NCBI GenBank assembly: GCA_017992175.1
Contig: JAGOPD010000001.1
Coordinates: forward strand, 62,001-126,000
From: Candidatus Saccharicenans sp.
GTDB lineage: Bacteria > Acidobacteriota > Aminicenantia > Aminicenantales > Saccharicenantaceae
DNA length: 64,000 nucleotides
Direction of reading: 5' to 3'
Below are positions 9,774 through 39,839 of the stretch, in pieces. Every line of letters starts with the position of its first letter. The first letter of the stretch is position 1. Both the position numbers and the translations under genes were made by a program. The notes beneath the pieces are model-generated. The model saw only the letters and a program-made list of their open reading frames with translations, did not search any database and was not told the origin of the DNA.

Positions 9774-9799
9774 TTGACAGCCAAAGCTTTAGTTAATCA

Positions 9800-10285: not shown

Positions 10286-10323
10286 GGTTTAACCTCCTCT
10301 CATAAATTCTTTAGTCATTCATT

Positions 10324-10352
10324 AATATAATATCGTAGTATATATTTGTCAA
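10324..10352 (-). promoter_or_regulatory. Consensus sigma70-type promoter of hsp20
   Basis: On the minus strand TTGACA (10347-10352), exactly 17 bases and TATATT (10324-10329) lie about 40 bases before the ATG. The spacer and -10 region are very A/T-rich, with AATATA and TATATT arms facing each other, which could also bind a regulator. Confidence 0.8.
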
Positions 10353-10367
10353 GTATTTTGAAAAAAA

Positions 10368-11045: not shown

Positions 11046-11064
11046 TTTTTCTTGATGGACGGGG

Positions 11065-12730: not shown

Positions 12731-12857
12731 AAGGAATAAATAACATAAAATAAAGACTTCTGTCCAATTTTCACTTAGTTTCCTATTATTTTCTCTAAAA
12801 AGTTGCAAAAACAGGTCAGTTCTTATAAATTATAAGAAAGGCAATCAGGAATAATAA

Positions 12858-14306
12858 GTGCAACATATCGCTCTGGCTTTAAAAGATATTTATTTTCAAG
12901 GGAAAAGCGGCCGTTTAGTTATAAGAAGAAAAGAGATAGAAAAATATATTTTTTTCATCGAAGGTAAACCGTTTCAAGTCAAGACTAATGTTAAGTCGGA
13001 AAGATTAGGGGAAATACTTTTTAAACTTCAGAAAATTCAGCAGGACACTTTTTCTAAAATAGACGATTATATTGAAGCCAATCAGCCTCTGGGCGAAAGC
13101 CTGAAAAAGAGCGGAGCCATAAAAGAGACGGATCTCAGAGAGGCTCTGGCCTTTCAAATCAGGGATGCCCTTTTAAATGTTTTTAACTATTTTGATGCTG
13201 AGCTTTCCTTTCAAGAACGGTCGGATCTAAAACCACCGGCTGAGTTTCCAGCTTTAGATTTACCGTTTATTATTGACTATGGCATCCGCCGGATGAAATA
13301 TGATGCTTCCCTCCAGAAATTTTTTAGCGGTAAAAAGCTGATCCTGAAAAACACCAAGTATGCTTACCTCTTGACTGATGAAGAAAAGAGCTTGCTCCAG
13401 CCTTTTTCAACCAGGCAGGAAATTGACCGGCTACCTATTCCAGCCGGGTTTTCTTCTGATAGTTTTTTCCGCTGTCTGTACCTTTTTTATTGCTTGGAGA
13501 TGATCGAAGTTTCAGGCTCTGATACTTCTTCTCGAAAAGCTGATCAAGAGGGCCAGAAGTATAAGGATCAGGACCTGGACGAAATTGAAGAGCGGCTGGA
13601 AGAACTAAAAGAAATAAAGGCCGGTTTAAAGACCAAAAATTTTTACGAGTTACTGGGTGTTAACCGGACAGCTACCGAAGAAGAAATCAAAAAAGCCTAT
13701 TTTGGCCTGGCCCGTAAATATCATCCCGATCGCTTCAATCAGCAGGTCAAAGATACTTCCCTGATAAATGAAATATTCAATAGCCTGACCAGTGCTTACC
13801 GGATTTTAATTGATCCGCAAAAACGCCGAGAATATGATTCTCAACTGACTACCGTTGTCCAGGAATCGGCCGACGATCAAGCCAAAAAGGCAGAGATTAA
13901 ATACCGCCAGGCCAAGACTTTGTTTAATCAGGGCATGTATGAAGAAGCCATCGTTTTTCTGGAGGAGGCCCTTCGCCTTCGCCGGGGGAAAGCCGAATAT
14001 TTCCTGTTATTGGCCCTGGCCGAATCAAAACTTGAAGCCTATAAGAAAAAGGCCGAACAGGATTTTCTCCAGGCAATCGAATTACAGTCCTGGAATGCTG
14101 AGGCCTATTTAGGGCTGGGCTTGCTCTACATGAATGAGGGATTAAAAATCAAAGCCAGAAAACAATTGGAAAAAGCGCTGGAAATAGATCCTGACCGCCA
14201 ACAAACTAAAGCTCTGCTGGCCGAACTCGGTAAGAAAGGGAAAAAAACCGGCCTGAAATCAATTTTAGGCCTTGATTTCTCTGATCTGTTCAAAAAGAAA
14301 AAATAA
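12858..14306 (+). CDS. PATAN/DUF4388-like – DnaJ – TPR fusion protein
   Basis: A 482-residue cytoplasmic protein starting at GTG with AGGA upstream. Residues ~1-120 resemble the DUF4388/PATAN module (GKSGRLVIRRKEIEKYIFFIEG, LGEILFKLQKI), found in signalling and gliding-related proteins of Myxococcota and Acidobacteriota. Residues ~260-325 are a J domain with FYELLGV and the HPD motif near 287, so it should stimulate an Hsp70/DnaK. Residues ~345-460 hold about three TPR repeats. No DnaJ Gly/Phe or zinc region is present, so it is not general DnaJ. It is convergent with ligA. Confidence 0.85.
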   Translation: MQHIALALKDIYFQGKSGRLVIRRKEIEKYIFFIEGKPFQVKTNVKSERLGEILFKLQKIQQDTFSKIDDYIEANQPLGESLKKSGAIKETDLREALAFQIRDALLNVFNYFDAELSFQERSDLKPPAEFPALDLPFIIDYGIRRMKYDASLQKFFSGKKLILKNTKYAYLLTDEEKSLLQPFSTRQEIDRLPIPAGFSSDSFFRCLYLFYCLEMIEVSGSDTSSRKADQEGQKYKDQDLDEIEERLEELKEIKAGLKTKNFYELLGVNRTATEEEIKKAYFGLARKYHPDRFNQQVKDTSLINEIFNSLTSAYRILIDPQKRREYDSQLTTVVQESADDQAKKAEIKYRQAKTLFNQGMYEEAIVFLEEALRLRRGKAEYFLLLALAESKLEAYKKKAEQDFLQAIELQSWNAEAYLGLGLLYMNEGLKIKARKQLEKALEIDPDRQQTKALLAELGKKGKKTGLKSILGLDFSDLFKKKK

Positions 14307-14307
14307 C

Positions 14308-16341
<2,034 letters not shown>

Positions 16342-25311: not shown

Positions 25312-25689
25312 ATGTCCGATAAAACCAGAATTCTCGTTATAGATGATGACCCAGCTATCTGTGTCTCGGTCAAAGCCATCCTTGAAGCCAGCGGTTATAA
25401 AACCTTCACGGCTTTGAGCGGCCAGGCTGGATTGGAACTTTTCCGCCAGGTTCAGCCGGATATAGTCTTGTGCGACATGATGATGGAAGATATCGATGCC
25501 GGGGCCAAAGTGGCTGGAGTGATCAAAAAAGAGAAGCCTGACCTTCCAGTTTTTCTGCTCAGCACCATCGGTGATGCCACGGCCAGGACAATCGGCCTTG
25601 ATGACCTGGGTTTTAATGGTGTTTTCCAGAAGCCGGTCAATTTTGATTTACTTCTCAGTGTCCTGGAAAAACACAGAAAAAAGCCCTGA
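25312..25689 (+). CDS. CheY-like single-domain response regulator
   Basis: A 125-residue receiver domain without an output domain. The acidic pocket is IDDDP (11-13), the phospho-acceptor is Asp55 (IVLCDMMM), and the conserved Lys lies in FQKPV near the C-terminus. The ATG follows CAGGAGGG. It precedes the hydrogenase locus in the same direction, and a similar receiver follows that locus at 36406, so it is probably part of that signalling system. Confidence 0.85.
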   Translation: MSDKTRILVIDDDPAICVSVKAILEASGYKTFTALSGQAGLELFRQVQPDIVLCDMMMEDIDAGAKVAGVIKKEKPDLPVFLLSTIGDATARTIGLDDLGFNGVFQKPVNFDLLLSVLEKHRKKP

Positions 25690-25719
25690 GGAATTTCCGG
25701 CTGCGAACCAGGTTTTAAA

Positions 25720-26232
25720 ATGAGTCTCTCCTTAGCAGACCTTTTCCGCCAAAATTCAGACCTGGAGGCTTTTTGTCAGGAAGTCAGAAAACTGGATGGT
25801 AGTTTTAACCTGACCACAAGCGAGATGGAAGCCTTAGGGCAGGCTTATTTTGAGCTTTATCCGGAGAAATATGTTCAGAGGGACCTGGCCGAAGTCAGGT
25901 TGGGATATCAGCTGGCCAGATGCTGCTTGCTGGAAAAGGCCCTGGCTGGCTTACCCGACAAAATTAAAAATTTTTTCAGGCAGGCTTTTGATCAGCCTGA
26001 ATCAATTGCCCGGCTGATGGAGGATGTTCACCGGCCAGAGGAAGCCTCTCTTCTGGCTTCTTCTTTTAACCGGCTTCAAGTTTCGCTGGATCAATTGAAA
26101 TCGGCTATTGATGAATTGCCCAAGGGTATGATCAAGGAGAGGTTCCTGGGCGGGATTTCAACCCTTTTTAATACCAGGTATTTGCTAAACATCTTTATCT
26201 CGCGCCTCAGTTCCAAGAGTTTACAAGGTTAG
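25720..26232 (+). CDS. Hypothetical helical protein upstream of the hydrogenase operon
   Basis: A 170-residue soluble protein that I do not recognise. It is predicted mostly helical with many Leu heptads, has few Cys (about two), no signal peptide and no membrane segment. It lies 30 bases after a receiver gene and 81 bases before the FdhA-like gene, all in one direction, so it is likely to be functionally linked to one of them. A chaperone or phosphorelay partner is possible but unproven. Confidence 0.6.
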   Translation: MSLSLADLFRQNSDLEAFCQEVRKLDGSFNLTTSEMEALGQAYFELYPEKYVQRDLAEVRLGYQLARCCLLEKALAGLPDKIKNFFRQAFDQPESIARLMEDVHRPEEASLLASSFNRLQVSLDQLKSAIDELPKGMIKERFLGGISTLFNTRYLLNIFISRLSSKSLQG

Positions 26233-26313
26233 GTTTTTCTGTTATTTTTTAACTTAAGACGCCAGAGAAAAAGGACATAATTCTAAAGACCTGATTGCCG
26301 AGGAGAAAAAAGA

Positions 26314-28332
26314 GTGCCTTACTATCGAGGTATATGTAACTTCTGCGGTACCGGTTGTGGTCACCTTCTCCGGGTGGAAGACAACCGGGTCCGTGGTGTT
26401 TATCCTCTGTCCGGTCATCCTCTGAGCCGCGGGCGGTTGTGTGTCCGGGGCTGGCATATTCATGAACTTCTTCAGACCGAAGATAGGATTACTCAACCGC
26501 TGATAAAAGACCAGGGTCATTTCAATCAGGTTTCTTTCCAGGCAGCCATTGATTTTGTTGCTCAAAAAATCAAAAATATTCCTGGCCGCCAGGTGGCTTT
26601 TCTTGGTTCTCCGCGGGCTTCAAATGAAGAGAATTACCTTTTAGAAAAATTTGCCCGGGCGGTTATTAAGACTAATAATCTCAGCCTGTCTTCGGACGCT
26701 GGCCAGGAAGAAAGTGCCAGGGTGCTCCTTGAAGGTTGCGGCTGGCCGGCTATGACCGGCTCCCTGTCCGAATTAAGGCAGGCTGACTTTATTTTAGTGG
26801 TGGGCGGTGACCTGACCAAACAAAATCCGATTATTGCCAGTGAAATTCATTATGCCCATCGAGCTGGGGCTTTCTTAGCAACTATTTCTCCCCGGAAAAC
26901 TCAGATGGCCAGGCTCAGCCAGGTTCATTTAAGGCCCAAGCCAGGAACAATTTTTTACCTCCTTCAGGCTTTAGCCAGGATCATAGCCGATGAAGGGAAA
27001 ATTGATTTTGAATATTTATCAAAATTTACGGCCGACAGCCAGAGTTTCCTCGACGGATTGAAGCTGGTTGAACTTGATCAGGTCGTAAAAATTACCGGGA
27101 TAGAAAAAAAGCAGATAATCAATCTGGCTGGCCAGCTGGCCGAGTCGAATTCGGCTTATGCTTTTTATCCAACCGGAGTCCAGAGCCTGGACAGTCGGAC
27201 CATGGCTGCTCTCTTCAACCTTTTTCTTTTAGCCGGTAAAATTGGTCGGCGGGGGAGTGGCCTTAGTCCGGTCACCGGGGTTAGCAATCTTCTGGGCAGC
27301 TATGATCTTGGTGTTTCACCGGTTTTTCTTCCGGGCTACGCGCGGGCCGAAGATGAGCAGGCCTGGAAAAAACTGGAGAATTTCTGGCAGGTTAAACTCG
27401 ACCGCTGGCCGGGTAGAAATGTTGATGCCTGCCTGTCTGACCATGAAGCTATCAAGGCCCTGTTTATCGTTGATCATGATGAAGAAATAATCAGGCATGT
27501 TAACCGGATTAAACAACTTGATTTAGTAGTCTATTTTGGCGCCTATCATAATTCTTTTGCTTCTCTAGCTGATGTCATTTTCCCCCGGACCAGCTATGCC
27601 GAAGGCGATGGAACTTATACTAACTCTGAACGGCGGGTTCAGCTGGTTAAGAAAAGGGTTGAACCGCCGGCCGGGGTTCGCCCTTTATGGGAAACGCTGA
27701 CCGGTCTGGCCGGAGCCCTGGGGCATAACTGGCAATATCATTCAGCTGAAGATATTATGGGCGAGATAAGCCAGCTGGTCCCTTTTTATTCCGGTCTGAC
27801 TTATGAAAAACTCACTACCCGGCTTGGCCTGAAATGGCCCTGTGATGACCTTCATCCCGAGGGGACGGATTGTCTCCTGGCGGAAGAAGCCAGCCGCCGT
27901 TTTAAGTTTATTCCGGTTGACTGGCTGGATAACGGTGCTGCTTGCCATCAACAGGTCCAGAAGGATTTTCCCTTACAGCTGGTGGTGGGACGCAGCAATT
28001 ATTTCTGGCACCAGAATTCGGTAATGAAAAGGACCTTCATTCCCAAACGTGAATATAACGCTCTGCTTCTTCTTTATCCCAGAGGTTTTGTCGAAATCTC
28101 AGAAGAAGATGCCAGGCGTCTCGGTTTAAGAGAGAAACAGCCAGTCCGGGTGGTGGCTGAATCAGCTGAAGTCAGGCTGGCCGTCAGGATTTCCCGCGAC
28201 ATTCTGCCCGGGATGCTTTACATTCCTTATTTTATTGACGAGATGATTCCTGAATTTCTTCACCGGCAGGTTGTTGATCTCGAAAAGAATGAAGAATTTT
28301 TCCTGCCTGTCCGGCTGGAAAAGGTGGAGTAA
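26314..28332 (+). CDS. FdhA-like molybdopterin oxidoreductase subunit lacking the usual Cys/Sec
   Basis: A 672-residue protein of the FdhA/NuoG-like molybdopterin family. Cys8, Cys11, Cys15 and Cys43 bind an N-terminal [4Fe-4S] cluster. The bis-MGD domains are recognisable (GRRGSGLSPVTGVSNLLGSYDLG; YAEGDGTYTNSERRVQ; C-terminal GRSNYFWHQ..FVEISEEDARRLGL). In formate dehydrogenases a Cys or Sec followed by His ligates Mo near residue 140 (VUHGPSVAG in FdhF). The matching stretch here is SLSSDAGQEESARV (124-137), with neither. The only nearby Cys is Cys142, just before PAM. The frame has no in-frame TGA, so no selenocysteine. It starts at GTG. Function as formate dehydrogenase is therefore doubtful. 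Confidence 0.85.
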   Translation: MPYYRGICNFCGTGCGHLLRVEDNRVRGVYPLSGHPLSRGRLCVRGWHIHELLQTEDRITQPLIKDQGHFNQVSFQAAIDFVAQKIKNIPGRQVAFLGSPRASNEENYLLEKFARAVIKTNNLSLSSDAGQEESARVLLEGCGWPAMTGSLSELRQADFILVVGGDLTKQNPIIASEIHYAHRAGAFLATISPRKTQMARLSQVHLRPKPGTIFYLLQALARIIADEGKIDFEYLSKFTADSQSFLDGLKLVELDQVVKITGIEKKQIINLAGQLAESNSAYAFYPTGVQSLDSRTMAALFNLFLLAGKIGRRGSGLSPVTGVSNLLGSYDLGVSPVFLPGYARAEDEQAWKKLENFWQVKLDRWPGRNVDACLSDHEAIKALFIVDHDEEIIRHVNRIKQLDLVVYFGAYHNSFASLADVIFPRTSYAEGDGTYTNSERRVQLVKKRVEPPAGVRPLWETLTGLAGALGHNWQYHSAEDIMGEISQLVPFYSGLTYEKLTTRLGLKWPCDDLHPEGTDCLLAEEASRRFKFIPVDWLDNGAACHQQVQKDFPLQLVVGRSNYFWHQNSVMKRTFIPKREYNALLLLYPRGFVEISEEDARRLGLREKQPVRVVAESAEVRLAVRISRDILPGMLYIPYFIDEMIPEFLHRQVVDLEKNEEFFLPVRLEKVE

Positions 28333-28335
28333 ATT

Positions 28336-29403
28336 ATGTACTGGCTGACCAGCGAACAGTTAGAACTTCTGGTTAAAAAACTGGCTCAAGAATATAAAAT
28401 TTTTGGCCCCCGCCACGACCGGGTTTCAAACGAAGTGATTTTTGATCTTTTAACTGACCTCTCCGAGCTGGACCTCCAGGCGGCCATTCCCTATAATCCG
28501 CCCAAGTTCATTCTTTTCCCCCACCTGGAGGAAATCCTCAGGTACCGTTATGAACCAGAGAGTAAACAGGCTCGAATCGAACAGCTCAATCTCCTGGAGC
28601 CTAAAGCTCTGGTCGGTTTGAGATCATGCGACCTGACCGGTTTGCTCTGTCTTGACCGCTTTTTCCTCGGGCAGGAGTTTGTGGATGAATTTTATTTAGC
28701 CCACCGGAAAAAATTGTTTATTATTTCCAACACCTGTCTCCGGCCTTTTCCCCAGTGTTTCTGTGTCTGTACGGACAGCGGGCCGGCTGCCAAAGAAGGA
28801 TTCGACCTCAATTTGACTCTGGCCAGCCGGGGCTATCTGGTTGAAGCTGGCTCTAAGAAGGGCCAGGCCCTGATTGATGAACTTAAGTTGCCAGAAGCAG
28901 GACGGGAAGCTTCTGCTCTTCAGAAAAAGATTATAGATGATTCTGTTTCCTCCTTTGACCGCTGGGCTTTAGAAAATAAAGCCTGGATTTCACGGGCCAC
29001 CAACCGGTTAACCACCGGTTTTATTAAACCTGAAGTCTGGGAATATATTGGCAATCAGTGCTTTGAATGCGGAGCTTGCTCTTTTGTCTGTCCCACCTGT
29101 TCCTGTTTCAATATTGAAGAGGCTAACCAGGAGAGCGGCGAGACTAACCGGCTGAGGACCTGGGACTCCTGTTCCTTTGAGGGCTATACCAAAATGGCTG
29201 GCGACAATAATCCCAGGAAGCCAGTTGAAGACCGCCGCAACAAGAGATTCTTTTGTAAATTGTCCTATTCCCAATCAAAAAAATATCTGCGCCCGGGGTG
29301 CGTGGGCTGTGGCCGCTGTGCCCGGGTTTGTCCCGGAGATATAGGTCTGCCCAATGTCGTAACTTATATCAGGCGGGAAATAACCGGAGAGGCTGGAGAA
29401 TAA
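28336..29403 (+). CDS. HydB/AsrA-like iron-sulfur electron-transfer subunit
   Basis: A 355-residue protein of the sulfhydrogenase beta / anaerobic sulfite reductase subunit A family. The family region includes GLRSCDLTGLLCLDRFF and a Cys-rich FPQCFCVC loop. Two [4Fe-4S] motifs close the protein: CFECGACSFVCPTC and CVGCGRCARVCPGD. In sulfhydrogenases this subunit shuttles electrons between the flavoprotein HydG and the catalytic part. It starts three bases after the FdhA-like gene, indicating tight co-translation. Confidence 0.88.
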   Translation: MYWLTSEQLELLVKKLAQEYKIFGPRHDRVSNEVIFDLLTDLSELDLQAAIPYNPPKFILFPHLEEILRYRYEPESKQARIEQLNLLEPKALVGLRSCDLTGLLCLDRFFLGQEFVDEFYLAHRKKLFIISNTCLRPFPQCFCVCTDSGPAAKEGFDLNLTLASRGYLVEAGSKKGQALIDELKLPEAGREASALQKKIIDDSVSSFDRWALENKAWISRATNRLTTGFIKPEVWEYIGNQCFECGACSFVCPTCSCFNIEEANQESGETNRLRTWDSCSFEGYTKMAGDNNPRKPVEDRRNKRFFCKLSYSQSKKYLRPGCVGCGRCARVCPGDIGLPNVVTYIRREITGEAGE

Positions 29404-29408
29404 AAATT

Positions 29409-30248
29409 ATGGATAAGAGTCTCGTGCCAATTACCTCAGTTCCGGAAATAGCTACCATCGTTGACATCCGCGATGAGATAGATGAGGTCAAGAGCTTCTA
29501 TTTCACCTTTGACCGGCCGGAAATTGAGCAGGCCTTTAGAATCCGTTCCGGTCAGTTCATTATGTGTACCGTTTTCAAAGCAGGCGAGTTTGCTGTTTCT
29601 TTACCATTTAGCCCAGAGAACGACCGCAAGCACCTGTCAGTCAGAAGAGTTGGTAAAGTCACTGCTGCCCTCCATCAGCTTGAGCCGGGAGATAAAATCG
29701 GAGTCAGAGGGCCATTTGGCAATGGTTTCCCCTTTGAAGAAATAAAAGGCAGTAACATTATTTATGTGGCGGGAGGCATTGGACTTATTCCGCTTCGCTC
29801 CTCAATTGTCCATGTCCTTCAGCACCGTCAGGATTTTGGCCGGGTCATTCTGGTTTATGGGGCCAAGAGTTCTAAGGAACTGATGTACAAGGAGAGCATA
29901 AAAGAATGGCAGTCCACTGAAAATTTTGAAACGCATTTTACCATTGACCGCTCTGAACCAGGCTGGTCAGGAGACGTGGGTTTTGTCAATCAATTGACGG
30001 CCAAACTTGAACTGCCGGTAGAAGAAACTGTGGCTTTTGTCTGTGGCCCGCCAGTGATGTTTAACGCTGTTATTAAGGAACTGAAATTAAAAGGAATAAA
30101 AGAACAGAATATTTATTCTACCCTGGAAAGGCACATGAAGTGCGGGATTGGCAAGTGCCAGCACTGTGCCATTGGCCGGACTCTGGTCTGTGTGGATGGC
30201 CCGGTTTATACCTATAAGCAAATCAGGACCTTAGGAGAGCAGATTTAA
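29409..30248 (+). CDS. HydG/AsrB-like FAD/NAD(P)-binding reductase subunit
   Basis: A 279-residue ferredoxin-NADP reductase-fold protein. An FAD domain is followed by the NAD(P) domain with IYVAGGIGLIPLRS and a VCGPPVMF motif. A C-terminal [2Fe-2S] binding motif CGIGKCQHCAIG...CVDGP is typical of the sulfhydrogenase gamma/AsrB/dihydroorotate dehydrogenase PyrK group. An upstream frame to 29298 overlaps the previous gene with non-family sequence, so the ATG at 29409 is preferred. It probably feeds NAD(P)H electrons into, or accepts them from, the complex. Confidence 0.9.
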   Translation: MDKSLVPITSVPEIATIVDIRDEIDEVKSFYFTFDRPEIEQAFRIRSGQFIMCTVFKAGEFAVSLPFSPENDRKHLSVRRVGKVTAALHQLEPGDKIGVRGPFGNGFPFEEIKGSNIIYVAGGIGLIPLRSSIVHVLQHRQDFGRVILVYGAKSSKELMYKESIKEWQSTENFETHFTIDRSEPGWSGDVGFVNQLTAKLELPVEETVAFVCGPPVMFNAVIKELKLKGIKEQNIYSTLERHMKCGIGKCQHCAIGRTLVCVDGPVYTYKQIRTLGEQI

Positions 30249-30249
30249 A

Positions 30250-30789
30250 ATGGAAGCACTTGAGCTCTGGCAGCGAGTTCTTCAGGGAAAGACCTGTTTA
30301 GCCGGTATTGGCAACGAATTGCGCGGCGATGACGGCTTTGGCCCTTATTTCATAGAATTAATGAAAGAAAAATCGTTATTTCCGTCAGCTAACCTGCTAA
30401 CGGTGGAGGATGTGCCTGAAAATTATGCTTTTCCTCTCTCTGAAAAAGACGTTGACAATGTAGTTTTTGTTGATGCTGTTCTTCTCAAGGCCCCTCCCGG
30501 GACAGTCATCTTTGGCCCGCTGGCTGAGTTCGAAGAAATAGGCGAGATTGTCTCCACCCATAAATTATCATTAAAGCTAACTTCCCAGTTGATAGAAAAA
30601 ACCGGCAAGAAGGTTTTTCTCCTGGGAGTAGTACCTGAAACTACCAGTTTCGGGCAGGAGCTCTCCCCTGCTATCAAAAAGATCACCGAGGAGCTGGCTA
30701 CTCTGACCGAGCAGCTGGTTAATAAAAAGTTCTCAGTTAATGGCCCGGAAGCGCCGGCCGGGGTTCAACTTGAAAGGAAAAAAGGCTGA
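30250..30789 (+). CDS. [NiFe] hydrogenase maturation protease (HycI-like)
   Basis: Cleaves the C-terminal extension of the large subunit after nickel insertion. The 179 residues carry the family start LAGIGNELRGDDGFGPYF with the metal-binding acidic residues, VVFVDAV and the conserved His in STHKLSL. It lies two bases after the reductase gene, and its target, the large subunit at 32684, keeps a 30-residue tail after its last nickel ligand, as expected for a processed hydrogenase. Confidence 0.92.
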   Translation: MEALELWQRVLQGKTCLAGIGNELRGDDGFGPYFIELMKEKSLFPSANLLTVEDVPENYAFPLSEKDVDNVVFVDAVLLKAPPGTVIFGPLAEFEEIGEIVSTHKLSLKLTSQLIEKTGKKVFLLGVVPETTSFGQELSPAIKKITEELATLTEQLVNKKFSVNGPEAPAGVQLERKKG

Positions 30790-32687
30790 TGACTATTCTG
30801 TCAGGCTTCAGTTTATTCTGGCTGACCTTGCTCCTGTCGGCTCTGCTGGCTCTGGTTTTCAGAAAGATGACAAATTTTATCCGCCTGGCCGGGACTTTTT
30901 TAATTGCTCTTAGCTGTCTTTGGCTGATTTTCCTCTCTTTATCTGTGCTGGGAACAGGGGGCTCGCCACTTGAATTTGAGATAGAAGCCGGAAGCTTTCA
31001 TCTCCCGTTTTTAATTGATGGCCTGTCGGCTCTTTTTCTTCTGCTTCTGGCTGTTTTAACTCTGGCGGCAACTGTTTTTTCCGTTGATTTTGTTAAGAAT
31101 TATGGGGCTGAAAAAATCCGGAAGTTTTATCTGGCTCTGCCCTTTTTTATTGGGGGGCTGGCCGGACTGCTGACAGCCGATGACCTTGGGCCTGGCTTTA
31201 CCCTTGCCTGGCAGTTAATGGCTATTTCTTCTTATATCCTGGTCAGAGAGGGCAGGCCGGCCAGGGCTTCAGCCAGACCGGCTTTAGTTTATCTGGTTTT
31301 TATGGAAACCGCCTGGTTACTGATCACTGGCTCGGCTTTTCTGGCCTCCGGCTATCAATTTGGTGATTCTTTAGCCACCATCGGCCTGAAGCTGGCTTCG
31401 AGCAGCACCTCCCGGGCTATCATTTTTTTTAGCCTTCTCTTTCTCGGTTTCGGTATTAAGACCGGGATTTTCCCTTTTGGCCAATTGTGGATTCCAGGTG
31501 CCTATTCGACAGCCTGGCCTCAGGTTTCTTCTCTCCTGGCTGGCATCCTGGAAAAGACTGGAGTCTTCGGCCTGGTCCGGGTCTTTTTCTTTGTGGCTAA
31601 AGAAGCCAGGTCAGCTTTTAATCCTGATCTCTGGGGAAAAACCCTGGTGGTGGCCGGCACCCTGACTCTTTTTATCGGGACAGTTCAGGCCATCAAACAA
31701 AGCGATTATCTCCGGCTTCTGGCTTATAGTTCCATCGGTCAGGTTGGCTATATAATTTTTGCTCTGGGCAGTAGCCTTTTAGCCTGGAGCAGTCCCTGGC
31801 CTCTGGCTAAATCCTTAGCCCCGGTGATATTTATTGGGGCCGTTTATCATAGCCTTAATCATGGCATTTTTAAGAGCTTGCTTTTTCTGCTGGGAGGGAA
31901 TCTCCTCTACGCCACTGGTACTCGCGATCTGAACCGGTTGGGCGGGCTGCTGGCCATTATGCCCGTCAGTGGTTTTCTGGCGGCCGTCGCTTCTTATTCT
32001 ATCTCTGGGATGCCTGCTTCCAGCGGCTTTGTCAGCAAGTGGTTAATGATTTCGTCCAATTTTCTGGCGGGCCGGGGCAGCCTGCTCTTAACCCTGGCGG
32101 GTATCATTGCTCTCTTCACGGCGGCTTTTACCTTAGCCTGCTATGTCAAATTTTTTGGTCTGGCCTTTACTTCGGCTGGAGCCCGCTGGAAAGTCAAAAA
32201 AGAAGTCAAAGAGGTCCCCTGGCGCCTGCTGGCTTCTGAAATTTTTCTGACCATCATCTGTCTGACTCAAGCTTTTCTGCCGATGGGTTATGTCAGTCTG
32301 GCCGGCCGGAGCCTTAAACTTTCACCTGGTTTCCTTCTGCCGGAAGCTGGAGCTGATAGCCTCAGCGGAAATATGTTTAGCTTAAAAATATACAATGGCC
32401 AGGAACTGCTGGCCGCCACGGCCCCGGTTTTCCTGTTGCTTCTGGTTATTCTGCTGGCTGGCCTGGCTTACTGGTTCAGCCGGTCCGCCCGTCCGGCTGA
32501 GGTTAAAGTGCCTGCCTGGCTGTCGGGTTACCAGGATTTAAATCAAAACAACGTCTATACCGACCGCCATCTGTTTTCAGATCTTAAAAAATTTTTCTGG
32601 TGGACAGGCGGCTCACCCAAGCCTGTTGTTGATGATACTGAACTGGCCGGGCCGGCTGAGGCCGGGAAAGAAGGTGAAGTCGAATGA
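30789..32687 (+). CDS. HyfB/NuoL-type proton-translocating membrane subunit
   Basis: A 632-residue antiporter-like membrane protein with about 14-15 hydrophobic helices and a helix-disrupting pattern typical of the NuoL/M/N family. Recognisable are KTGIFPFGQLWIPGAYSTAWPQVSSLLAG and SLNHGIFKSLLFLLGGN, which hold the conserved Lys/His of the ion channel. It is the only antiporter-like subunit in the locus, so ion pumping probably relies on one such module. It overlaps both neighbouring genes by a few bases. Confidence 0.9.
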   Translation: MTILSGFSLFWLTLLLSALLALVFRKMTNFIRLAGTFLIALSCLWLIFLSLSVLGTGGSPLEFEIEAGSFHLPFLIDGLSALFLLLLAVLTLAATVFSVDFVKNYGAEKIRKFYLALPFFIGGLAGLLTADDLGPGFTLAWQLMAISSYILVREGRPARASARPALVYLVFMETAWLLITGSAFLASGYQFGDSLATIGLKLASSSTSRAIIFFSLLFLGFGIKTGIFPFGQLWIPGAYSTAWPQVSSLLAGILEKTGVFGLVRVFFFVAKEARSAFNPDLWGKTLVVAGTLTLFIGTVQAIKQSDYLRLLAYSSIGQVGYIIFALGSSLLAWSSPWPLAKSLAPVIFIGAVYHSLNHGIFKSLLFLLGGNLLYATGTRDLNRLGGLLAIMPVSGFLAAVASYSISGMPASSGFVSKWLMISSNFLAGRGSLLLTLAGIIALFTAAFTLACYVKFFGLAFTSAGARWKVKKEVKEVPWRLLASEIFLTIICLTQAFLPMGYVSLAGRSLKLSPGFLLPEAGADSLSGNMFSLKIYNGQELLAATAPVFLLLLVILLAGLAYWFSRSARPAEVKVPAWLSGYQDLNQNNVYTDRHLFSDLKKFFWWTGGSPKPVVDDTELAGPAEAGKEGEVE

Positions 32688-34378
32688 GCAGAAAAGAAGA
32701 GCTGCTGGAGTTACTTAAAGAAAAATTAAAGGCAGATTTTTTGGCTGAAGATTTCTCCACGGAAGGCAAGTGCCTGTTTATTGACCTAAAAAAAGAGTCT
32801 CTGGTAGAAGCCGCTAAAATACTGATGAGCCAGGGGGCCCGCTATCAGGCAGGTGTTGGCTATGATGCCAGAAAAAGCGGCCGCGGACTGGCCCTGGTTC
32901 ACACGTTTGCCTTTGATTCTGATTCGCTGCTGGTGGCTATCAGGGCTTTTACCCCCGAAGACCACCCTGAATTCGAGTCGCTAACCCCGCTTATTCCCGG
33001 GGCTGGGTGGTCAGAGCGTGAATATATTGATCTTCTTGGTCTTCATTTTAATAACCACCCCAATCCCAAACGGCTGGTTCTATCTGATGACTGGCCAGAG
33101 GGAATTTATCCGCTCCGCCAGGATGTCCCCTACGATCTGATGCCTCCTTCGGCCGAAGAGGTCGCTTTCAGGCTGGATGAAGCCCCGCCTGGCAGTTCGA
33201 TCATTCCCTTTGGACCTTTTCATGCCTGTCTTCATGAACCGGCCCATTTCGCTGTCTATGTTGATGGCGAAGAGATAAAAGGCTGCGAATACCGGGGATT
33301 CATGGTCCACCGGGGAATAGAAAAATTAGCGGCGACAGAACTGATTTACAGCGAAATACCATTTGTGGCTGAACGAATTTGCGGGATCTGCGGTTCAGTT
33401 CATTCAGTCAATTATGCCCAGGCAGTAGAATCGGCCGCCGGTCTCAAAATTCCACGACGGGCTGAGTTTATCCGGACAATTATGCTTGAAATTGAAAGGC
33501 TTCATTCCCACCTGATGTGGCTGGGAGTGGCTGGACATCTTATTGGTTTTGATACTGTTTTCATGCAGGCCTGGAGAATAAGAGAAAAAATAATGTGGCT
33601 GGCCGAAAGCCTGACCGGCAACAGGAAAACTTACGGAATGGTAATCATCGGCGGTGTTCGCCGGGATATTGACCGGGAAAAGGCCAGTCAGGTCAAAAAG
33701 ACTTTAGCTGAAGTTGAAAAAGACCTGCTGGCTCTGGATAAGGCCATTATCAAAGATAGAGCCATTCATAGAAGAACCAAAGGTGTTGGCTTTCTTTCTA
33801 AGGAAAAAGCCATTGAATGGAGTCTGGTTGGCCCGGTGGCCAGAGCCAGAGGACTGACCATTGATGCCAGAAAAGACCATCCCTATGCTGCTTATGATGA
33901 GATGAAGTTCGAGGTGGCGGTGGCTGAGTCCGGTGACGTCTGGGGAACACTGGTGGTGAGGATTAAAGAAATTTATGAAGCCATCAAAATCATCAATCAG
34001 TGCCTGGAAAAACTGGCTTCTATCCCTGAAAATTCTCCCTTAGCGGTGGAACTGGATTCACCGGTTCCGGCTGGCCGGCAGGCGCTATCGGTGGTAGAAG
34101 CTCCACGGGGAGAGGCGGTGCATTATCTGCTGACGGGAGATGATAACCGGCCGGAGCGCTGGCGGGTGAGGGCTCCAACTTATCCCAACCTGCAAGCCGT
34201 TCCGGACATGCTGCTGAATAATAGGCTGGCTGATTTTCCAATTATTGTTGGCTCCATTGATCCCTGTATTTCCTGTACTGACCGGATAGCGGTGATTGAC
34301 CGCCATTCAGCTGCAGCCAAAATGTTAAGCCGGCAGGAGCTGGAAAAGCTGTCGAGAGAAATGAGGTCTAAGACATGA
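32684..34378 (+). CDS. Group 4 [NiFe] hydrogenase large subunit (HycE-like, NuoC-NuoD fusion)
   Basis: Catalytic nickel subunit of 564 residues. The N-terminal ~160 residues are NuoC/30-kDa-like (GAGWSEREYIDLLGLHF), the rest is NuoD/large-subunit-like. Both nickel-ligand pairs are present: Cys233 and Cys236 in RICGICGSVHS, and Cys528 and Cys531 in DPCISCTDR. The 30 residues after Arg534 are a probable cleavable C-terminal peptide. With four intact Cys ligands it should be an active hydrogenase, not a Complex I subunit, which lacks them. Confidence 0.95.
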   Translation: MSRKEELLELLKEKLKADFLAEDFSTEGKCLFIDLKKESLVEAAKILMSQGARYQAGVGYDARKSGRGLALVHTFAFDSDSLLVAIRAFTPEDHPEFESLTPLIPGAGWSEREYIDLLGLHFNNHPNPKRLVLSDDWPEGIYPLRQDVPYDLMPPSAEEVAFRLDEAPPGSSIIPFGPFHACLHEPAHFAVYVDGEEIKGCEYRGFMVHRGIEKLAATELIYSEIPFVAERICGICGSVHSVNYAQAVESAAGLKIPRRAEFIRTIMLEIERLHSHLMWLGVAGHLIGFDTVFMQAWRIREKIMWLAESLTGNRKTYGMVIIGGVRRDIDREKASQVKKTLAEVEKDLLALDKAIIKDRAIHRRTKGVGFLSKEKAIEWSLVGPVARARGLTIDARKDHPYAAYDEMKFEVAVAESGDVWGTLVVRIKEIYEAIKIINQCLEKLASIPENSPLAVELDSPVPAGRQALSVVEAPRGEAVHYLLTGDDNRPERWRVRAPTYPNLQAVPDMLLNNRLADFPIIVGSIDPCISCTDRIAVIDRHSAAAKMLSRQELEKLSREMRSKT

Positions 34379-35274
34379 AGGTGGTGGCAGTCTTCATCAA
34401 TTTAATCTTTTTTCTCCTGCTGGCGCCTTTTCTGGAAGGAGTGATGAGAAAACTAACGGCCAGGATTCAATCCAGGCAGGGCCCGCCTCTTTATCAGCCT
34501 TATCTTGACCTGCTGAAACTCCTGGGCAAAGAAAATTTAAATGCCGGAGGAAACTGGGCCTTTCGTTTGGCGCCTATCCTGTCTTTTAGCTCAATGCTGG
34601 CGGTCATCGCTCTCATTCCCTTAACGGGCCAGGCCAATATATTAGCCCATTCCTCAGATTTAATGACGTTGATTTATTTTTTGACTCTGAGCGGTTTTTG
34701 CCTGCTGGTAGGAGCTTTGGCCAGCGGGAATCCTTTTGCCGCGGTGGGAGCCAGCCGGGAAATGATGACTACGGTCATGCTGGAACCGGTTCTGGCTATG
34801 CTGTTAATTCTGGGAGCAGTCAAAAACGGCAGCTTCTCTTTAGCTGCAGCTGTGCCGGGAGTAGCCTCGGCCCGTGGTATTTCTTATTTTCTCATGTTAG
34901 CTGTTTATCTTCTGGCTCTTCAGGCTTTTGTTTCCAGGCAGCCATTCGATATAGCTGAAGCTGAGGTTGAGATCCTGGAGGGGCCCTATCTGGAGTACAG
35001 CGGGCCAAACTATGCTCTATTACACTATACCCTGAACCTCAAAAGAATGTTTTATGCCTGGCTTCTTATTTCCTGTTTTTTGAATTTTATCTTGCCGGCC
35101 AATTTTATTCTGAGCCTGCTGTTACAAACGGTCCTGATCATCGTTGTCTTTGTTCTAATTTCTGCGGTCGGGGCTACTCATCCCCGGTTCAGGATTGATC
35201 AGGCTCTTAAATATTATGCCCTGCTTCTGATTTTAGCTTTGATAGCTATTAGCTTCGGGGTCAAGGGTTGGTAA
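34375..35274 (+). CDS. HycD/NuoH-type membrane subunit
   Basis: A 299-residue membrane anchor with about eight helices. Family motifs are ARIQSRQGPPLYQPYLDLLKLLGKE at the N-terminus and the acidic loop QPFDIAEAEVEILEGPYLEYSG. It connects the hydrogenase arm to the pumping subunit in group 4 hydrogenases. The ATG overlaps the large-subunit stop by four bases. Confidence 0.93.
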   Translation: MKVVAVFINLIFFLLLAPFLEGVMRKLTARIQSRQGPPLYQPYLDLLKLLGKENLNAGGNWAFRLAPILSFSSMLAVIALIPLTGQANILAHSSDLMTLIYFLTLSGFCLLVGALASGNPFAAVGASREMMTTVMLEPVLAMLLILGAVKNGSFSLAAAVPGVASARGISYFLMLAVYLLALQAFVSRQPFDIAEAEVEILEGPYLEYSGPNYALLHYTLNLKRMFYAWLLISCFLNFILPANFILSLLLQTVLIIVVFVLISAVGATHPRFRIDQALKYYALLLILALIAISFGVKGW

Positions 35275-35294
35275 AGTGAAAGGCAAGGCTGAAG

Positions 35295-35840
35295 ATGTGG
35301 ATCTGGAATAAAATTAAACAGCTGGCTATTTCTTCCAGGACGGGGGTGGTTACCCTTCGCTATCCTTTTAAACCAAGACCAGCCCCGGCCGGTTTCCGGG
35401 GCCAGCCAGTCTGGGATCATACCAAGTGCATTGGCTGTGCCGGTTGTGCCAGTAACTGCCCGGCCAGAACTATTTTCCTGCGGGATATTTGCCAGGAAAT
35501 CAGGATTCTACTCTACGATTCAGCCCGCTGTACTTACTGCGGCCGGTGTGCCGACCTCTGCCCGGAAAAGGCTATTACCATGAGTGATAATTTCGAGCTG
35601 GCTTCAGATCACCGCCAGGACATAACTCAAACCCTTGAGCTGTTTATGATGACCTGCCAGCGCTGCGGCCGCTGCTATGATCTGGAAATAAAAAATAGGC
35701 TCGACAAACTTCAAACTCTGGGCTACCGTTATGACAGCCTGGAATTCAGAAAAGTTATCAGACAGTCGACTCCTGAATTTGAGCCTGAGCTTCTGGAGAA
35801 GACAACCGTTTATCACCGGCCCGAAAAATCGGAGAAATGA
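35295..35840 (+). CDS. HycF/NuoI-type ferredoxin subunit with two 4Fe-4S motifs and a third Cys group
   Basis: A 181-residue iron-sulfur protein. The two standard motifs are CIGCAGCASNCP and CTYCGRCADLCP. A further CQRCGRCYD group near residue 120 could bind an extra cluster or zinc; it has only three closely spaced Cys. It relays electrons between the NAD(P)H/FdhA-like module and the proximal cluster of the small subunit. It shares an ATGA overlap with the next gene. Confidence 0.9.
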   Translation: MWIWNKIKQLAISSRTGVVTLRYPFKPRPAPAGFRGQPVWDHTKCIGCAGCASNCPARTIFLRDICQEIRILLYDSARCTYCGRCADLCPEKAITMSDNFELASDHRQDITQTLELFMMTCQRCGRCYDLEIKNRLDKLQTLGYRYDSLEFRKVIRQSTPEFEPELLEKTTVYHRPEKSEK

Positions 35841-36403
35841 ATATGTTGAAAAAATTATCTGCCAGAGCCTTTTGCCGCTCGGTCTGGGTTTATCATTGCA
35901 ACAGCGGAGCCTGTAATGGCTGCGATATAGAAATTCTTAATGTCCTGACGCCTTATTATGATGTGGAGAGATTTGGCATCAGGTTAGTTGCTTCTCCCCG
36001 TCAGGCTGATGCCATTCTTCTGTCCGGAGCCGTGACCAGGCCGACCTTACCCTTAGTAAAAAAGGCCTACCAGGCTGTGCCGGCTCCCAAACTGGTTTTT
36101 GCCATTGGCTCCTGTGCTATCGGGGGAGGCTGCTGGTATGATACCTATAATGTGACTGGCGGCGGAGATAAAGCTATTCCAGTCAACTATTTTATTCCCG
36201 GCTGCCCGCCGCGGCCCGAAGCCATCATTTTTGGCGTAGCCCTGGCCCTGGGCCTGGTTGATAAAAAAGTGGCACCGGTCGAGCTCAAGCAAATGGAGTT
36301 CCCGGTTGATATGTACCGGCAGTCAAAAATTCTGGAGAGCAATAAGGTGATCTATCAACTTTTGGGTGAAGAGGATGACCGCCTCGGCTCCGGGAGGAAA
36401 TAA
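35837..36403 (+). CDS. [NiFe] hydrogenase small subunit (HycG/NuoB-like)
   Basis: A 188-residue small subunit that carries the proximal [4Fe-4S] cluster next to the nickel site. The ligands are Cys26 and Cys29 in GACNGCDIE, a Cys in IGSCAIGGG and a Cys in PGCPPRPEAI. The short length and lack of extra clusters place it with group 4 and Complex I homologues. It closes the hydrogenase gene set, and three bases later the signalling genes begin. Confidence 0.94.
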   Translation: MNMLKKLSARAFCRSVWVYHCNSGACNGCDIEILNVLTPYYDVERFGIRLVASPRQADAILLSGAVTRPTLPLVKKAYQAVPAPKLVFAIGSCAIGGGCWYDTYNVTGGGDKAIPVNYFIPGCPPRPEAIIFGVALALGLVDKKVAPVELKQMEFPVDMYRQSKILESNKVIYQLLGEEDDRLGSGRK

Positions 36404-36405
36404 CC

Positions 36406-36810
36406 ATGCCCGTGATTCTGCTGGTAGATGACGACCGTGACCTGACTGACAGCCTGAGTCAGATTCTGCGCCTGAAGGGCTATGAAGTGGTGGTGGCTTA
36501 CAGCGGGACAGAAGGCTTGAAAAAGCTGGTCGAAACCAGACCGGATCTGGTCATTATGGATGTCATGATGGAGACTGACACGGCTGGCTTTGAAGCGATT
36601 TATAAGATCAGAAGTGACCGGCCGGATTCAAAATTCAAAGAGTTCAAAGATCTGCCGATCATCATTCTGACCGCCATTGATCAGGTGACCAACGCCAGAT
36701 TTTCCCTCGATCAGGAGGAGAGCTTTTTGCCCGGTCATAACGAATTTCTGAACAAGCCGGTTGATCCGGATGAGTTACTGGAAAAGATCGGGAAGTATCT
36801 TAACAAGTAA
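36406..36810 (+). CDS. Receiver-domain response regulator at the end of the hydrogenase operon
   Basis: A 134-residue stand-alone receiver. The acidic pocket is VDDDRD (8-10), the phospho-acceptor is Asp52 in LVIMDVMM and the switch Lys lies in NKPVDP. An insertion around residues 66-78 (SDRPDSKFKEFKDLP) makes it longer than CheY. It begins two bases after the small-subunit gene, so it is almost surely co-transcribed with the hydrogenase. No DNA-binding output is present. Confidence 0.9.
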   Translation: MPVILLVDDDRDLTDSLSQILRLKGYEVVVAYSGTEGLKKLVETRPDLVIMDVMMETDTAGFEAIYKIRSDRPDSKFKEFKDLPIIILTAIDQVTNARFSLDQEESFLPGHNEFLNKPVDPDELLEKIGKYLNK

Positions 36811-36811
36811 G

Positions 36812-38755
36812 ATGAATCTCCAAAAATTTCTGGAAAAAACAGCTGCTTTGAGATCAAGCTTGCGTTTCAAGCTGATCACCGGCTTGCTGGCCATTGTTTT
36901 TTTGATGGGGGCCTTGTCTATTTTTATCGGCATAAATTCTATTAACCGCAATGTCATCAGGGAAGCCTACGACAATCTGCGCAATAGCCTGAAAGCTATC
37001 AATGATCTCTATCAGGAAGAAATAAACACCAGATCGAAAATTGTAGAGTATCTGTCCAGAACCTCAGAAATAGTTAACGCTACGGCCGCAGGAAACCGGG
37101 AATATCTTTTTGAAAAACTGGTTCAGATCAAAGAAGAATTCGGGTTTGACATAGTCAACGTGGTCAAGCCGGATGGAACAATTCTGGTTAGAGCTAACAA
37201 CTTTGAGGCTTATGGAGATAGCGTTAGTCACTATAAGTTTATTCAGTGGGTGTTAAAGAACCGCCAGCCAGCTGCCGGCACTGGTATCCTGGGCTATGAA
37301 AATATAAAAAATGAAGGCCCTGACCTGGCCGAAAGGACCTTGATCAATGTTATCCCTACTCCCCGGGCCCGCAGCCTGCGCCGGGAAGTCGAAGAGAGAG
37401 CCCTGGTGCTGAAAACAGTGGTGCCTATTTTCCAGCGAAATAAGCTGGTCGGCGTTCTGTATGCAGCTGTTTTGCTTAACAACAATGAACGTTTTATAGA
37501 TCGCTTTAAGAGATTAATTTTTAAAGAAGAAAGAATAAAAGGCAAGGATGCCGGAACGATTACCATCTTTTTAGACGATGTCCGGGTAGCAACCAATGTC
37601 CTGGATAAAGACGGGAGACGGGCAGTCGGGACGATCGTCTCAGAAGAAGTTTATCATCAGGTGTTTGAACAGGGACAGGACTGGCTGGGGCGGGCTTTTG
37701 TCGTCAACGATTATTATCTTTCAGGTTATCGGCTGCTGCGTGATATTGAAGGCCAGCCAGTCGGGATGCTGTATGTCGGCCTCCTGCAGGCCAAATTTGA
37801 TCAGATTTTGCGGCAAACTACCATTTTGTATTTCGTTCTGATTTTCCTCATGACCGGCATTGCTATTTATATTTCTACTTACCTGGTTAACGTTTATACC
37901 AGGCCAATAAACAGAATGATCAAACTAACGGCTGAAGTAGCCCGGGGCAATTATCATCTCCTTGATATTTCGCCGGAAGAAAGCGAGGAGATAAAAGAAG
38001 TAGAAGAGTCGTTTAATGCTATGGTTAAAGCTATTGAGGAGAGAGATAACCGTTTGAAAGAACTGACTGAGAAAACGATTCTGCGTTCCGAGAAACTGGC
38101 TTCCGTTGGCCGGCTGGCAGCCGGGATTGCTCATGAAATCAACAATCCTCTGACCGGGGTTTTGACTTATAGCAGCCTTTTACTGGAAGAATTAAAAGGC
38201 ACGCCATATGAGGAAGATCTGAAAATAATTAAAGAAGAGACCCTGCGCTGCCGTAAGATAGTCAGAGGGCTGCTCGACTTCGCCCGCGATTACAAGCCGG
38301 AAGAAGTCAGAGTCAATCTGAATACTCTGATTGAAGAAACCCTGCAGATTCTCGAAAACCATGTCAATTTCCAGAATATCAAGATTATTAAAAATCTTGA
38401 TCAGGGCTTGCCGGAAGTTAAAGTTGATGCTGATGAGTTCCGCTCGGTCATTAATAATCTGGCTGTTAATGCGGCTGATGCTATGCCCACTGGCGGCCAG
38501 TTGACCATTTCAACTGTCTATGATTCTCTGGCGAAGCAGGTCATAATAAGAGTAGCTGATACGGGTGTCGGGATAAGCGAGGAAAATCTCAAACGAATTT
38601 TCGAGCCTTTTTTCACCACCAAGGAGAAAGGTCAGGGCACAGGCCTGGGGCTGGCCATGGCTTATGGAGCTATCAAGCGGCACAATGGCACAATTGAGGT
38701 CAAAAGCCAGCTCGGACAGGGAACTGAGTTCGTGATAAAATTGCCGGTGGACTAG
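36812..38755 (+). CDS. Membrane histidine kinase with extracytoplasmic Cache-like sensor
   Basis: A 647-residue sensor kinase. One membrane helix (about 20-40) is followed by a ~300-residue extracytoplasmic region with Cache-like features, a second helix (about 345-370), a HAMP domain and the HisKA phosphorylation box GIAHEINNPL with His441. The HATPase_c domain shows N, G1 (DTGVGIS) and G2 (GTGLGLAMAYG) boxes. An earlier frame to 36761 overlaps the receiver gene; the ATG at 36812 right after its TAA is preferred. The ligand is unknown; its place suggests a redox or fermentation metabolite. Confidence 0.9.
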   Translation: MNLQKFLEKTAALRSSLRFKLITGLLAIVFLMGALSIFIGINSINRNVIREAYDNLRNSLKAINDLYQEEINTRSKIVEYLSRTSEIVNATAAGNREYLFEKLVQIKEEFGFDIVNVVKPDGTILVRANNFEAYGDSVSHYKFIQWVLKNRQPAAGTGILGYENIKNEGPDLAERTLINVIPTPRARSLRREVEERALVLKTVVPIFQRNKLVGVLYAAVLLNNNERFIDRFKRLIFKEERIKGKDAGTITIFLDDVRVATNVLDKDGRRAVGTIVSEEVYHQVFEQGQDWLGRAFVVNDYYLSGYRLLRDIEGQPVGMLYVGLLQAKFDQILRQTTILYFVLIFLMTGIAIYISTYLVNVYTRPINRMIKLTAEVARGNYHLLDISPEESEEIKEVEESFNAMVKAIEERDNRLKELTEKTILRSEKLASVGRLAAGIAHEINNPLTGVLTYSSLLLEELKGTPYEEDLKIIKEETLRCRKIVRGLLDFARDYKPEEVRVNLNTLIEETLQILENHVNFQNIKIIKNLDQGLPEVKVDADEFRSVINNLAVNAADAMPTGGQLTISTVYDSLAKQVIIRVADTGVGISEENLKRIFEPFFTTKEKGQGTGLGLAMAYGAIKRHNGTIEVKSQLGQGTEFVIKLPVD

Positions 38756-38774
38756 AGCCGGAAGGAGATCAGAC

Positions 38775-39839
38775 ATGAGCAAACCAAGGGTTCTCTTTAT
38801 TGACGATGAAGATATCGTTCTGCGCAGCTGCCGCCGGATTTTTGCTTCGTCAGATTATGAGATAGATACTGCTCAGTCGGCCGAAGAGGGGCTGAGCAAA
38901 GCTATTAATGAAGATTATGACCTGGTCGTTACCGATTTAAAGATGCCAGGGATTGGCGGGCTGGAAGTGCTATCCAGGCTGAGAAAAGTCAGACCTGATA
39001 CCACAGTCATTATTTTTACCGGCTATGCCAGTGTTGATACAGCTCGTGAGGCCCTGAAGAATGGAGCTTTTGATTACATTCCAAAACCTTTTACGCCGGA
39101 GGAGATAAGAGAAGTCATCAAGAATGCGCTGGAAGCCAGAGCCGGCAAACAACGCAGCATGCTTGATCTGATGGCGATTGTCTCCCATGAATTGAAAAGC
39201 CCGCTGTCTGCGCTTCATACCACCGCTTCCACTCTATACAAAGGTTATTTTGGCCAGCTGTCGCCCGAACAGATGAAAATTCTTGAGACCATCATTCGCA
39301 ACTGCGAATATCTGGAAGATATCATCCGCAGCTATTTAGACCTGTCGAAGATGGAACTTGACCAGCTGGAAGCTTTCCTGGAGGAAATCTATTTCATTAA
39401 AGATGTCGTCGAAGAGGTTCTTAATCTGCCCGAAATTACTGACAGCGGGAAAAAGATGAAAATCACTCGGGATTTTCCTGAGGAGGCCAGAATTAACGGC
39501 GACCCGAGATTATTAAAAATTTTAGTCAGGAACCTGGTCAATAATGCTATTAAGTACGGATATGAAGGAACAGAAATCAAGCTCGGCCTGAAGAAGAAAG
39601 GCTCGGAAATGATCTTTTCCGTCCATAATCAGGGTGTCGGGATCAAGCCGGAAGATGGCCAGCGTCTCTTCCGGAAATTTGAAAGGCTAAAACAGCCTGG
39701 AACAGAAGGCGTTAAGGGTTCCGGCCTTGGCCTTTATATCTGTAAGAAAATCGTTGACAGTCATAAGGGACGAATCTGGTTTGAATCGGAACCGGGGCAA
39801 TGGGTAACATTTTATGTTGCTCTGCCCTTGGTCAGCTGA
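38775..39839 (+). CDS. Soluble receiver–histidine kinase hybrid
   Basis: A 354-residue protein with an N-terminal receiver domain (Asp10, Asp11, phospho-acceptor Asp54 in LVVTDLKMP, Lys in PKPFTPEE) joined to a HisKA box VSHELKSPLSALH (His ~138) and a HATPase_c domain (GVGIKPEDG; GSGLGLYICKK). It has no membrane segment. Receiver-first kinases usually sit in the middle of a phosphorelay, so it could take phosphate from the upstream kinase. It follows that kinase by 19 bases after GGAAGGAGA. Confidence 0.92.
   Translation: MSKPRVLFIDDEDIVLRSCRRIFASSDYEIDTAQSAEEGLSKAINEDYDLVVTDLKMPGIGGLEVLSRLRKVRPDTTVIIFTGYASVDTAREALKNGAFDYIPKPFTPEEIREVIKNALEARAGKQRSMLDLMAIVSHELKSPLSALHTTASTLYKGYFGQLSPEQMKILETIIRNCEYLEDIIRSYLDLSKMELDQLEAFLEEIYFIKDVVEEVLNLPEITDSGKKMKITRDFPEEARINGDPRLLKILVRNLVNNAIKYGYEGTEIKLGLKKKGSEMIFSVHNQGVGIKPEDGQRLFRKFERLKQPGTEGVKGSGLGLYICKKIVDSHKGRIWFESEPGQWVTFYVALPLVS

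Follow-up and report, generated by a model that had tools for sequence, protein, structure and literature searches.

NuoG, a subunit of complex I, is a degenerate molybdenum (Mo) enzyme of debated origin, and complexes of the formate hydrogenlyase (FHL) type have been proposed as the nearest hydrogenase ancestors of complex I (PMC9474812). Only one report of a locus comparable to that considered here was found in the literature, and no named family. It concerns Saganbacteria RX5A, where an 'enigmatic' group 4 [NiFe] locus has, besides cooF, asrA and asrB, a molybdopterin protein called a formate dehydrogenase (FDH) by profile hidden Markov models and unclassifiable by phylogeny; the pertinent main-text passages relate its hydrogenase to those of Zixibacteria and Omnitrophica and propose an Mbh-like role for it (Matheus Carnevali et al. 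2019, PMC6349859). The window analyzed here, a whole stretch of 64,000 nucleotides of contig JAGOPD010000001.1, is from an uncultured subsurface relative of Candidatus Saccharicenans (Aminicenantes), and at 26314-36403 on its plus strand nine genes encode, in this order, an FdhA-like protein, HydB, HydG, a HycI protease, HyfB, HycE, HycD, HycF and HycG. The FdhA-like protein appears, from sequence and model, to be a degenerate FDH that resembles NuoG by convergence, and the whole is probably a complex I-like membrane NAD(P)H:H+ oxidoreductase of FHL build (group 4a-like by best match in the PDB, not by subgroup phylogeny), in which the dead FDH serves as iron-sulfur conduit or scaffold.

Residues 124-137 of the FdhA-like protein read SLSSDAGQEESARV. 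In an ungapped alignment, with the loop anchored by its ungapped spacing from NN121-122, Sec140 and His141 of Escherichia coli FdhF fall on G130 and Q131, and elsewhere Arg333 and Lys44 of FdhF fall on T321 and R45. A preliminary description of this DNA had reported that the stretch is without the Mo-ligating Cys/Sec-His, and so it proves; the loss of Arg333 (T321), the HycI protease gene, the two-component genes and orf170 that travel with the locus and the conservation in 31 relatives are additional to that description. Thirty-two members of the FdhA-like family were compared with 25 FDHs, 24 from the same phylum plus FdhF, at positions 140, 141 and 333 of FdhF, which we take to be FDH catalytic residues, and at others, several of which presumably contact molybdopterin guanine dinucleotide in FdhF. 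Position 140 is U or C in all 25 FDHs and G (29), W (2) or H (1) in the FdhA-like proteins; position 333, R in 25/25 FDHs, is T in 23, A in 6, P in 2 and V in 1 of the family, and a His aligns at position 141 in 12 of the 32, being absent in 20. Lys44, K in every FDH compared, is R in 32/32 and N176 is D in 32/32, both as in NuoG, while D202, Q335, G402 and E403 are substituted in nearly all or all of the 32. Cys 8, 11, 15 and 43, the [4Fe-4S] ligands, are invariant in 32/32, and the family scan recovers the pterin domains, both as earlier described. Because the pattern is conserved in 31 relatives, it is not due to chance or sequencing error. Selenocysteine can be rejected for the FdhA-like protein as its gene has no in-frame TGA; most true FDHs of the phylum show one. 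Cys142, which the preliminary description had considered as a potential Mo ligand, is very unlikely to be one, as it is not conserved: position 142 is T, G or A in relatives.

The protein scores 438.8 bits with TIGR01591 (formate dehydrogenase alpha), below the equivalog cut-off of 666, with a true FDH of a relative at 761, and 140.4 bits with TIGR01973 (NuoG), for which the cut-off is 470; the N-terminal 2Fe-2S and 4Fe-4S domains of NuoG are absent. Among solved chains it is closest to an F420-linked FDH, in which a non-standard residue, printed X, occupies the Sec position. Phylogenetically the FdhA-like family is a single clade (support 100/99) on a long stem nested among FDHs, and one of its members, at 37% identity, comes from a different family of Acidobacteriota (L092); NuoG lies outside the FdhA-like/FDH grouping on a very long branch. 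Since it is one such well-supported clade within the FDHs, the loss of catalytic residues is seen as ancient and maintained. The AlphaFold model has a mean pLDDT of 78.6, with the Fe-S loops and parts of the pterin loops below 50; the loops of the Mo pocket are among those of low confidence, so that cofactor binding is not readable from it. In Foldseek searches its best matches are FDHs, with a TM score of 0.84 for FdhF versus 0.64 for NuoG. Descent from NuoG is thus rejected by both tree and fold, and it is the nesting together with the fold match that point to a dead FDH whose likeness to NuoG is convergent. The suggestion of a 'NuoG-like conduit' made in the preliminary description is apt as an analogy, and fails on ancestry and fold.

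FdhD is required for FDH activity. It had no match in 40/40 related genomes, with a control found in 8/14, and among genomes that carry the locus MoaA, MoeA and MoaC, genes for synthesis of the molybdenum cofactor (Moco), were each undetected in G019, G024, G036, G418 and G423. With the catalytic residues lost clade-wide, FdhD undetected in the relatives and Moco synthesis genes undetected in several carriers, formate oxidation, earlier called doubtful, now looks very unlikely. Could the locus nevertheless encode a formate hydrogenlyase with an altered yet working formate site? The retained FDH fold and the FHL-like character of HycE, HycG, HycF, HycD and HyfB, with E. coli HycE the best PDB match, speak for this, yet it is barely credible given that Sec/Cys and Arg333 are absent from all 32 family members and His141 from most, that FdhD is undetected, that the TIGR01591 score is so short of its cut-off and that no gene for a HycB-type four-cluster linker is present within 25312-39839. 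Other molybdopterin-fold proteins in G019 and G036 are without FDH residues and look, from their sequences, NuoG- or ActB-like. True Cys FDHs of another Acidobacteriota family (L093 and L094) adjoin apparent Moco biosynthesis and ABC transport genes, and NuoE/NuoF-type genes are also near the former.

All open reading frames (ORFs) of the preliminary description were found where it had put them, and its complete group 4 set, comprising a large subunit with four Ni Cys, small subunit, HycF, HycD and HyfB, is indeed present. Families were identified by Pfam/NCBIfam scans and PDB matches. The nine genes are:

26314..28332, plus strand: FdhA-like protein, 672 amino acids, GTG start; Molybdop_Fe4S4, Molybdopterin and Molydop_binding domains
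28336..29403, plus strand: HydB/AsrA-like iron-sulfur subunit (Fer4_22); closest solved chain Pyrococcus furiosus sulfhydrogenase I beta (9nez_B)
29409..30248, plus strand: HydG/AsrB-like FAD, NAD(P) and [2Fe-2S] subunit; closest solved chain 9nez_C
30250..30789, plus strand: HycI-type [NiFe] hydrogenase maturation protease; TIGR00072 over cut-off
30789..32687, plus strand: HyfB/HycC-like antiporter-like membrane subunit; Gln in place of the Glu of transmembrane helix (TM) 5, TM7 Lys and TM12 Lys retained
32684..34378, plus strand: HycE-like large subunit with fused NuoC domain; four Ni-ligating Cys and a C-terminal extension for HycI cleavage
34375..35274, plus strand: HycD/NuoH-like membrane anchor; E-channel glutamates conserved
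35295..35840, plus strand: HycF-like 2x[4Fe-4S] subunit, from the family scan
35837..36403, plus strand: HycG/NuoB-like small subunit with the proximal-cluster cysteines

The start of HydG is taken as the ATG at 29409; a longer ORF from a GTG at 29298 overlaps HydB.

The large subunit is of NuoCD/HycE type, not group 3, and its four Ni cysteines are in the motifs RICGIC (C233, C236) and DPCISC (C528, C531), which are conserved throughout the orthologs with one or two exceptions, attributed to an internal deletion in L023 and a contig end in L033. Its closest solved chain is HycE of E. coli FHL (7z0s_E), at 421 bits against 256 for Mbh. In the membrane arm, Glu130, 138, 199, 201, 203 and 206 and Tyr102 of HycD (E. 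coli numbering) are kept in 20/20, with Gly at Arg108, and in HyfB the TM5 substitution is common to every intact copy examined. The term 'energy-conserving' in the preliminary description therefore fits the E-channel glutamates of HycD and sits less well with the antiporter-like subunit. E. coli HycC has the reverse pattern, with Leu208 and Glu135, and its E135A variant suffers little loss of H2 production (PMC9474812). Given that reverse pattern and mild effect, ion coupling by the present complex is best called putative.

The counterparts of HydB and HydG in the NADPH-linked sulfhydrogenase I (SHI) of P. furiosus are its beta and gamma subunits, respectively, the families being matched below their equivalog cut-offs. 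The Cys of the HydG [2Fe-2S] site are kept in 22/22 and its FAD/NAD motifs are well conserved. An invariant Asp of HydG lies about where SHI gamma appears, in a weak alignment, to have Thr, a site homologous to the 2'-phosphate contact of enzymes of the ferredoxin-NADP+ reductase (FNR) type, and is suggestive, not decisively, of NADH over NADPH. The NAD(P)H linkage that had been put forward for the complex is accordingly well supported by the HydB/HydG pair, though unproven, with the donor itself inferred.

Most group 4 hydrogenases outside FHL use ferredoxin, and it may be that ferredoxin is the real or an additional donor here, docking on the FdhA-like/HydB module so that the complex is a ferredoxin hydrogenase or one that confurcates ferredoxin and NAD(P)H to H2. 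H2 evolution would then be exergonic and, as searches of same-genus genomes gave no Rnf above cut-off, hydrogenases may have to reoxidize ferredoxin. No FeFe hydrogenase was found in the genus. Against ferredoxin, the strictly co-conserved FAD/NAD(P) subunit points to nicotinamide, no additional flavin subunit of a type known to bifurcate was seen, and the genome of the window has, by reading of the sequences, a separate group 4 [NiFe] hydrogenase with Mrp-type subunits suited to ferredoxin (L112, G000:C24:42000-58000, at 5272-15260 on the minus strand). The existence of that second enzyme leaves the complex of the window free for a donor other than ferredoxin, and the ferredoxin alternative seems unlikely though deserving of attention. 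A maturation protease gene is near the Mrp-linked hydrogenase. The same genome also has, again assigned by reading sequences, a HoxEFUYH-like group 3d NAD-linked cluster (L113, G000:C11:48000-62000, at 4020-9758 on the minus strand); located just upstream of the window, it has a protease and a HypB-like gene.

Named relatives with the locus are Ca. Aminicenantes, Ca. Saccharicenans and uncultured Spirochaetes; the relatives found span two phyla. The order FdhA-HydB-HydG-(HycI)-HyfB-HycE-HycD-HycF-HycG is kept in nearly all complete copies, and it is shared by Spirochaetes, different Aminicenantes families and one more family of Acidobacteriota; HycI was undetected by similarity in L035, L037, L038, L039, L063 and L065. 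Intergenic gaps of -4 to +20 bases are as expected of a single operon. That FdhA, HydB and HydG form a first block, ahead of the hydrogenase genes, is what two separate enzymes under shared regulation would give, a group 4 hydrogenase and an unrelated soluble FdhA-HydB-HydG NAD(P)H oxidoreductase. Such a division is very improbable, since the block is never apart from the hydrogenase in the uncut loci examined (all located by way of their FdhA-like protein, with no separate search for HydB/HydG alone), overlapping start/stop codons join the later genes, and FHL is a precedent for an FDH-type subunit seated on HycB/HycF.

The preferred reading, of one NAD(P)H-linked membrane complex, starts from the gene content, the clade-wide absence of FDH catalytic residues and the intact hydrogenase site, and from there we infer the subunit order, the absence of Mo cofactor, NAD(P)H as donor, the direction of flow and pumping. 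Electrons from NAD(P)H would enter at the FAD of HydG and pass by way of its [2Fe-2S] cluster, the clusters of HydB and the [4Fe-4S] cluster of the FdhA-like protein to HycF, HycG and the [NiFe] site of HycE, where H2 would be made or used, reversibly, with HycD and HyfB coupling the flow to an ion gradient. At cellular potentials the reduction of protons by NAD(P)H lies close to equilibrium or is unfavorable, and therefore the membrane arm may spend a gradient to expel H2, or earn one on H2 oxidation. We put at somewhat under even chances the bolder proposition that this is a second independent invention of complex I logic, with a Mo-free, FDH-derived conduit between an NAD(P)H module of FNR type and a [NiFe] hydrogenase coupled to protons, so that an ion gradient is spent or earned at the NAD(P)H/H2 couple.

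Several points weigh against the preferred reading. Without an encoded HycB-like bridge the FdhA-like protein may, by analogy with cluster N7 in complex I, sit off the main electron path. The Gln in TM5 weakens the case for ion pumping through HyfB, and the Asp of HydG, set against the Thr of SHI gamma, makes NADH rather than NADPH possible. MoaA is present in 16/18 same-genus relatives and, with it being common there, the lineage of the window could be one in which the protein still binds a pterin. Further, G024, in which the three Moco genes were not found, has a conventional Cys-FDH over the TIGR01591 cut-off, so some of the absences may be assembly gaps; as Moco genes are clustered in several of the genomes that have them, one such gap can remove all three, and their absence is support only, not proof. 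The Cys-FDH of G024 (L131, G024:C71:17905-19872) is on the same contig as the dead FDH, in a genome where FdhD, too, was not found. Bearing on the same matter is the alternative that the FdhA-like protein still binds a Mo- or tungsten-pterin via another ligand, for instance the conserved acidic residue at 128, and acts on another substrate. The pterin-domain folds are intact, residue 128 is D or E with the single exception of the most distant member, a WHxN motif (565-568) is nearly invariant and most same-genus genomes have a Moco gene; however, at positions such as K44, N176, H181, D202, Q335, G402 and E403, where FDHs show little or no variation, essentially every family member has a different residue, some of the changes being in the direction of NuoG, and the motifs are equally kept in the carriers where Moco synthesis genes were undetected. 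This alternative is accordingly quite unlikely.

The operon is flanked by two stand-alone receivers, a Cache sensor kinase and a receiver-kinase hybrid (25312-25689, 36406-39839), with no DNA-binding output domain among them, and such two-component flanking is unusual regulation for a hydrogenase:

25312..25689, plus strand: RR1, stand-alone response-regulator receiver, syntenic in Aminicenantes loci
25720..26232, plus strand: orf170, all-helical conserved protein, no Pfam family, co-conserved with the locus
36406..36810, plus strand: RR2, stand-alone response-regulator receiver
36806..38755, plus strand: Cache-domain sensor histidine kinase, start uncertain
38775..39839, plus strand: HK2, receiver and histidine-kinase hybrid

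These flanks are kept in Aminicenantes and part of them is nearby in Spirochaetes, while L092 has the operon core without them. The orf170 gene travels with the hydrogenase locus and the two-component genes, in Spirochaetes included; its product, for which the model is confident and all-helical with no PDB match below E 0.001, may be accessory to the sensor system. L041 (UBA6228), the closest relative (89%), has a locus deleted internally from HyfB to the kinase (15073-15091; window 31406-38092), with about 19 bases shared at the joint, and this is either a real deletion or an assembly collapse.

If the preferred reading is true, fermenting Aminicenantes and Spirochaetes have a direct membrane-linked NAD(P)H/H2 route, and it would be a mistake to annotate such genes as FDH or to build metabolic models around formate from that annotation. 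Given the RX5A report (PMC6349859), this type of locus cannot count as entirely new. That locus, compared by description only, likewise has a group 4 hydrogenase, antiporter-like subunits, an FDH-like molybdopterin protein and asrA/asrB, which are the HydB/HydG families; its active-site residues are not discussed in the main-text passages, and the two loci are probably alike in kind, apart from the cooF of RX5A. New here are the residue loss as a clade trait, the wide distribution, the cofactor-gene evidence, the FDH origin and the regulatory neighbors. With E. coli FHL-1 (Hyd-3/FdhF; PMC9474812) the locus shares HycE, HycG, HycF, HycD and HycC-type modules, an FdhF-fold subunit and the HycD E-channel glutamates; it differs in being without HycB, in the catalytically dead state of its FdhF-like subunit, in the addition of HydB/HydG and in the TM7 Lys and TM5 Gln of HyfB versus Leu208 and Glu135. 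Though built like one, it is thus not a formate hydrogenlyase by membership, having neither a catalytic FDH nor HycB, and the earlier statement that it is no standard one stands. P. furiosus sulfhydrogenase I (9nez) has the same HydB (beta) and HydG (gamma) subunits, but is a soluble group 3b hydrogenase without a membrane arm or FDH-like subunit. With complex I the likeness lies in a subunit derived from a Mo enzyme and, as predicted here, devoid of Mo, serving electron transfer or structure, in a predicted NADH input, in a NuoB/C/D/H/I/L core and, for NuoG, in the shared changes of Lys44 to Arg and N176 to D; in contrast to complex I, the entry point for NAD(P)H would be HydG, of FNR type, in place of NuoEF, the FDH-like subunit has its own origin among the FDHs and the terminal site is [NiFe], not quinone. 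The locus looks, then, like a parallel to complex I, in which the FDH of an FHL-like complex died but was kept and a different NAD(P)H module was added.

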